A stretch of DNA of 64,000 nucleotides from Desulfitobacterium metallireducens DSM 15288. GTDB lineage: Bacteria; Bacillota; Desulfitobacteriia; Desulfitobacteriales; Desulfitobacteriaceae. The position numbers were made by a program, and so were the translations under genes. The stretch covers positions 372,001-436,000 of the forward strand of contig NZ_CP007032.1 of the NCBI RefSeq assembly GCF_000231405.2, in the 5' to 3' direction. Position 1 is the stretch's first letter. Every line of letters begins with the position of its first letter. The notes under the pieces are model-generated. The model was not told where the DNA came from and made no database searches. It worked only from the letters and a program-made list of their open reading frames with translations. Positions 53,722 through 53,879 of this stretch are shown piece after piece.

Positions 53722-53740
53722 GGCCGCCGTCCATGGCGGC
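53722..53740 (+). repeat. GTCCAT-loop hairpin (A type)
   Basis: GGCCGCC-GTCCAT-GGCGGC; with site 15 and the B hairpin at 53862 it makes the most complete composite junction. Confidence 0.9.
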
Positions 53741-53766
53741 ACTCTGAATCTGGGGGCGTACGGCAT

Positions 53767-53846
53767 CGGATAACAGAGGGTTTGCGACATCGGGGTAGAA
53801 CATTTTAGGTAATAACCCGACATCGCAAACCTCAAAACGTTATCCG
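53767..53846 (+). repeat. attC-like site 15
   Basis: Outer arms GCGTACGG-CA-TCGGATAAC and GTTATCCGA-AA-CC..; inner arms GAGGGTTTGCGACATCGGG / CCCGACATCGCAAACCTC. Nearly identical to site 16. Confidence 0.92.
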
Positions 53847-53861
53847 AAACCTAACGCAGGG

Positions 53862-53879
53862 CCGCGCGTTCATGCGCGG
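53862..53879 (+). repeat. GTTCAT-loop hairpin (B type)
   Basis: CCGCGC-GTTCAT-GCGCGG, followed by the conserved leader ATTACATTTATGGCGCACTC. Confidence 0.88.

Follow-up and report, generated by a model that had tools for sequence, protein, structure and literature searches.

In the attC arrays of this Bacillota order, the complementary arms that flank the recombination site belong to the two ends of one and the same cassette. These own-end arms probably extend the attC in the free circular cassette and favour its insertion by a recombinase encoded at the array head, whereas in the array, where they are parted, the hairpin would be weaker. The composite junction at positions 53722-53879 of the window (the whole stretch of 64,000 nucleotides analyzed here) may be understood as two half-structures left after insertion, the complete form of which would exist in the free circle. 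Matching ends that double the known length of the recombination hairpin point to an integron-like system of Bacillota that has been overlooked and that has an unusual recombinase.

The window spans positions 372001-436000 of a 3.18 Mb genome that consists of one contig, and has a GC content of ~39%. A one-directional gene-cassette array starts at 39.5 kb and continues past the window end, and more array pieces are found at 616-622 kb and 669-679 kb of the same genome. Across 34 aligned attC sites the AAC and GTT cores are invariant within imperfect inverted repeats (R''/R'), and all 11 stem pairs of a covariance model (R1) built on the R''-to-R' part of these sites covary, with double changes that keep the pairing; the attC identity of the sites is real. 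Searches with the covariance model identified attC of this type in 39 of the 46 genomes of the same GTDB family and in two further families of the order, whereas nine genomes from a different family of the same class yielded no such site; attC arrays of this kind are widespread across the order. Among named organisms, the closest to carry this arm are Desulfosporosinus nitroreducens, Desulfosporosinus sp. BRH_c37, and an uncultured Peptococcaceae bacterium; the host itself is related to Desulfosporosinus (Bacillota, Desulfitobacteriaceae). A search of the window against Rfam returned two tRNAs and no other RNA family. There were no matches to the 51-57 kb region in plasmid sequences (near mode) or to the junction itself in phage sequences (distant mode), and a literature search that did not extend to subscription papers found nothing relevant on attC arrays in Desulfitobacterium or Desulfosporosinus.

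Every piece that the preliminary description had named at 53722-53879 (GC hairpin, left arm, attC, right arm, GC hairpin) was found, all on the forward strand. The upstream cassette (53158-53839, with limits at the crossover G|TT; ORF 53263-53676) carries near its end a hairpin, GCCGCC-GTCCAT-GGCGGC, with the loop GTCCAT (53723-53740), followed by the left outer arm and R'' (GCGTACGG-CA-TCGGATAAC; 53756-53774). The attC (53768-53845; R'' GGATAAC, R' GTTATCC) matches model R1 at 53765-53848 with 62.8 bits, a score obtained for a site that is itself among the 34 used for the model. The downstream cassette (53840-54919; ORF 53939-54727) begins with the right outer arm GTTATCCGAAACCTAACGC (53839-53857) and the hairpin CCGCGC-GTTCAT-GCGCGG with the loop GTTCAT (53862-53879). 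Matching GTCCAT-type loops thus flank the attC on both sides, and the whole nested structure exceeds a canonical attC in size, both as previously described. The proposed folding, as bottom-strand DNA and as RNA, also held at this junction: the bottom strand of 53719-53884 folds with -42.9 kcal/mol (z -6.6 vs shuffles), and the top strand of the same segment, as RNA, gives z -6.2 vs shuffles.

The left arm has its true partner in the start arm of its own cassette (GTTATCCGAAACCGTACGC; 53157-53175). With the G of GTT taken as idx 0 and positions numbered away from the attC, the left arm matches its own start at 8/8 positions of idx 11-18, and the start of the next cassette at 6/8. The start hairpin of the upstream cassette (CCGCGC-GTCCGT-GCGCGG) lies at 53181-53198. 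For the downstream cassette, the partners of 53839-53879 are its end hairpin and end arm (54803-54853), with 6/8 matches between the right arm and its own end arm at 54835-54853. When the circle was rebuilt for cassette 53158-53839, the fold reached -48.7 kcal/mol, compared with -42.9 at the array junction.

Each attC was taken with 60 flanking bases, and every end arm was compared with candidate start arms at idx 11-18, which are outside the search model. A first count comprised 296 sites and 215 cassettes; the stricter set comprised 179 distinct cassettes of the same GTDB family with clean cores. In the stricter set, a cassette's own start and end match at a mean of 5.40 of 8 positions, whereas the linear junctions of the same cassettes match at 2.60 of 8, the level of within-genome permutations (2.73 +- 0.11; maximum 3.11 in 2000). 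A second family (104 sites, 73 cassettes) gave 6.63 for own ends, 3.45 for junctions, and 3.38 +- 0.18 for permutations. Mutual information reaches 1.12 bits within cassettes (at idx 12-13) and is at most 0.09 bits, near the shuffle level, across junctions. Arm complementarity is a property of one cassette's own two ends.

The claim that the attC stem reaches far past R''/R' is borne out, with an excess of own-end matches to idx 16-18. The accompanying claim, that an end arm pairs with the start of the next cassette, applies at 53772/53839, the only junction of the window's array with at least 6/8 outer matches, where pairing occurs because both neighbours happen to carry a near-identical CGTACG arm type; the array-wide counts show that it is true of this junction alone and false as a rule. 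The four other sites cited for a longer right arm, CCGTACGC (sites 9, 12, 14, and 24, which we take to be the GTT at 47449, 51754, 53157, and 62081), have unpaired junction arms, with 1, 2, 1, and 2 of 8 matches. Three of these four starts fit their own cassette end at 7-8/8 (51754/52471, 53157/53772, and 62081/62656), and the cassette of the fourth (47449) has a decayed end attC, as read from the sequence at ~48.5 kb. The result named beforehand as refuting the earlier reading, outer arms with no more matches than random ends, was obtained for the junctions of the 179 distinct cassettes. The earlier reading is thus partly supported, having named the wrong pairing partners. Since junction matches are random and own-end matches are strong, we assign the nested structure to the free circular cassette.

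Beyond the attC, the stem of the circle comprises ~10 pairs including the R box, a wobble position, and then 6-8 pairs, and own-end pairing drops to chance at idx 19. At the wobble position, idx 10, the left side has C and the right side A in 164/179 and 71/73 cassettes of the two families; this is a mismatch on the top strand and a G.T wobble on the bottom strand. At other positions, counts of G.T vs A.C mismatches give no clear preference for either strand, and hence for RNA or bottom-strand DNA. The arms are diverse between cassettes yet matched within them, with several pair types at most positions; some arm and hairpin types recur, few in number, and many arm types are non-palindromic. 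GC hairpins, mostly with a GTCCAT-type loop, were identified at both ends of 35 cassettes, at one end of 18, and at neither end of 126, against a background of 7/537 segments. Start and end hairpins co-occur per cassette (Fisher odds ratio 61, p 7e-21), compared with an odds ratio of 2.4 (p 0.025) across junctions. Within the genome, 25 of the 26 exact matches to GC-flanked GTCCAT lie inside cassette arrays.

Several individual cassettes show rearrangement or decay. A chimera of end and start hairpins (GCTTAAGGGGCCGCGTGTTCATGCGCGGATTACG; 40978-41020 of the window), with no attC between them, looks like a deletion that fused two cassettes via their hairpins. A nitroreductase-like cassette is present in two copies (43440-44277 and 56650-57172) with nearly identical ends, of which the second is truncated and has lost its own start arm (own match 2/8). 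Long attC at 41602 and 57926 (117 and 123 nt) have a nearly alike variable terminal part, and the left arm is lost at 57926. Inside a further cassette, 50232-51585 encodes what we would guess, from sequence, to be a radical SAM/cobalamin-type protein, apparently broken by a frameshift. Elsewhere, IS110/IS1111-like transposases are inserted inside attC next to R'' (L020 10511-11725 and 17075-18289; L018 ~18050-19280); these insertions presumably resemble the known IS1111-attC group.

Bottom-strand folds computed on attC with 20-nt arms gave, for the first family, a mean of -24.3 kcal/mol in the reconstructed circle, and of -16.8 both in the array and with a random partner. The second family gave -27.7 (circle) and -18.1 (array), so that in the two families the circle form is ~7-10 kcal/mol more stable than the array form; the corresponding means for Vibrio are -28.0 and -25.5. 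The bottom strand is the more stable one in 93% of 178 circle forms. Each cassette carries two complementary outer arms, the first at its start and the second ahead of its attC. These adjoin only in the excised circular cassette, where they lengthen the stem to ~17-19 bp, and many cassettes also have a GC hairpin on either side. We propose that, in the circle, the bottom strand would fold into a stable extended attC, the putative preferred substrate for the head tyrosine recombinase inserting at attI. On insertion, the crossover G|TT would separate the two arms of one cassette, so that at each junction an end arm meets a start arm of unrelated sequence, from the next cassette. The weaker hairpin of the array junction may then bias the system toward retaining inserted cassettes. 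The arms most likely favour folding of the circle, and hence its integration. We infer that folding in the circle is the selected trait, that insertion is what it favours, and that the head recombinase is the agent.

The arms and hairpins could also be the remains of a larger palindromic attC module that was split by a gene at the birth of the cassette, and that has since been inherited without selection. The recurrence of a small number of arm and hairpin types, the retention of arms by homologous cassettes across genera, and the existence of single unpaired changes are consistent with this; single pair-breaking changes (42) outnumber compensated double changes (16) in homologous cassettes. 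However, the arms are diverse and yet matched within cassettes, and they are conserved above their flanks and four-fold sites: between homologous cassettes of 55-95% protein identity, arms are 91-92% identical, compared with 65-75% for adjacent flanks and 75% for four-fold sites, in a set of 15 pairs that was chosen for recognizable arms and is therefore biased upward in arm identity; across all 20 homologous pairs, the values are 83-84%, 63-71%, and 76%, respectively. Where both sides of an arm pair have changed, pairing is kept in 16/20 cases, a count from 29 homologous cassette pairs only. This substitution pattern appears to favour selection on pairing rather than inheritance alone. We regard an unselected relic as unlikely to be the whole explanation, and arm conservation could be partly inherited from the birth of the cassette.

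It is improbable that the arms act instead in RNA, with the transcript of a single cassette pairing its 5' end with its 3' end in a panhandle that protects or regulates the mRNA, and the DNA circle being irrelevant. A cassette's own ends are indeed both ends of a single-cassette transcript, and the top strand of the junction segment folds well too; however, the conserved C.A at idx 10 does not pair in RNA and corresponds to a G.T pair when the bottom DNA strand folds, the bottom strand is the more stable in the great majority of circle forms, and own-end pairing starts within the recombination core, with a shorter version in Vibrio. There is little to recommend arms that are protein-binding sites on double-stranded DNA, such as the palindrome CGTACG, with pairing as a by-product of symmetry: CCGTACGG is palindromic, as read from the sequence, but many arm types are not, and their sequence is free provided that pairing holds. 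A functional nested structure formed in the array by the arms of neighbouring cassettes at each junction is barely credible, and as a general rule is refuted: site 53772 does fold in this way, but junction matches and array folding energy equal those of random partners, hardly any mutual information spans the junctions, and the other sites first cited are unpaired.

The agent proposed for insertion of the extended attC is encoded at the array heads. At least 17 array heads in the two families have a tyrosine recombinase or a remnant of one on the cassette strand, and no attC was found upstream of these recombinases. In the window, the array head retains the recombinase as a remnant only: a tblastn search with the L023 enzyme identified a decayed C-terminal fragment (39358-39459, forward strand) with 91% identity over 34 residues, with the first detected attC 122 bp downstream. 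Against the integron-integrase profile TIGR02249 (cut-off 265), five head enzymes that are intact or nearly so reach 206-224 bits, with the match split in two, whereas the positive control, Vibrio IntI, gives a single unbroken match of 522 bits; no enzyme in the 46 genomes of the family scores above this cut-off. Compared with Vibrio IntI (2A3V), the head enzyme has 25 residues where IntI has 67, and a ~40-residue IntI-specific insertion is absent from the intact head enzymes compared; 2A3V is nonetheless the second-best PDB sequence match, and the C-terminus of the enzyme is IntI-like. The array-head enzymes lie close to the threshold of the XerA-type family NF040815 (NCBIfam; cut-off 220), with scores of 209-240 bits. 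Full-length head enzymes have an additional N-terminal alpha/beta domain (L063 4872-6026; L073 1859-2980; L023 1-1035), for which a Pfam search gave no name, and a Foldseek search with the head enzyme returned only tyrosine recombinases and integrases above noise. The N-terminal domain may resemble the HARP domain, which binds branched DNA.

The own-end rule was used to find the start of the first cassette, and at six heads 14-15 of 15 positions matched; at four of the six, this start lies 82-117 bp past the enzyme match. Several of the attI-like sites are preceded by similar CCGCAA/TTGCGG inverted repeats, and several other array heads have no clear attI match by this rule. An IS91-type transposase with its own tyrosine recombinase is found near array heads (L056 6333-8343 in G017; L020 6788-8796 in G000), and in the G017 head an IS91-type unit lies between the recombinase and the array. 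The best IntI-like enzyme of the genome under study (at 666.8 kb) was rejected as an integron integrase, given its position directly before an IS91-type transposase.

It is established for integrons that the R'' and R' of one cassette pair with each other in the circle. The sites described here resemble the integron attC (59-base element) in their R''/R' cores, unpaired central spacer, covarying inner stem, G|TT crossover, unidirectional array, own-end pairing past the 7-nt core, and a bottom strand that folds better than the top. Most integron cassettes self-pair over 9-11 nt, which is a usual rather than a defining property (PMC2727003), and in a Vibrio superintegron, put through the same analysis, own-end pairing stops at idx 9-11. 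Unlike in the integron attC, own-end pairing here extends to idx 16-18, past the conserved C.A position, and a subset of cassettes has GTCCAT-type GC hairpins on both sides; the hosts also differ, being an order of Bacillota. Within the literature searched, the stem length and conserved wobble position, the paired hairpins, the array-wide absence of junction pairing, and the tie to a recombinase without the I2 domain in a Bacillota order are new. The own-end rule also has a practical use, as it fixes the exact limits of cassettes and attI.

With two or more attC and no IntI above the profile cut-off in the 46 genomes, these arrays fall within the definition of CALIN, but differ in having a conserved tyrosine recombinase at the array heads and an attI-like site at several of them. 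They share with a chromosomal integron with intI a recombinase, cassettes, an IntI-like enzyme C-terminus, and, at several heads, a candidate attI-like site; unlike in such an integron, the head enzyme lacks the IntI-specific domain, has the extra N-terminal domain when full-length, and reads in the cassette direction. The near-cut-off scores recall a XerA-type recombinase (NF040815), but the head enzymes sit at attC-array heads. We tentatively suggest, as a reading with slightly less than an even chance, that this Bacillota order has its own integron-like system, in which a Xer-like recombinase without the I2 domain would insert folded single-stranded cassettes, with the extended own-end stem doing part of the work of I2 (for instance strand choice or directionality). 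Complete integrons are regarded as nearly absent from Firmicutes, with one in Limnochorda pilosa (PMC9024848); that 39 of the 46 genomes of a single family carry such attC contrasts with this supposed rarity. The origin of integrons has been framed as a chicken-and-egg problem, in which neither the I2 domain nor attC would make sense in the absence of the other (Escudero and others, PMC4792948), and large attC arrays headed by a Xer-like recombinase that lacks I2 would be a direct test case for it.
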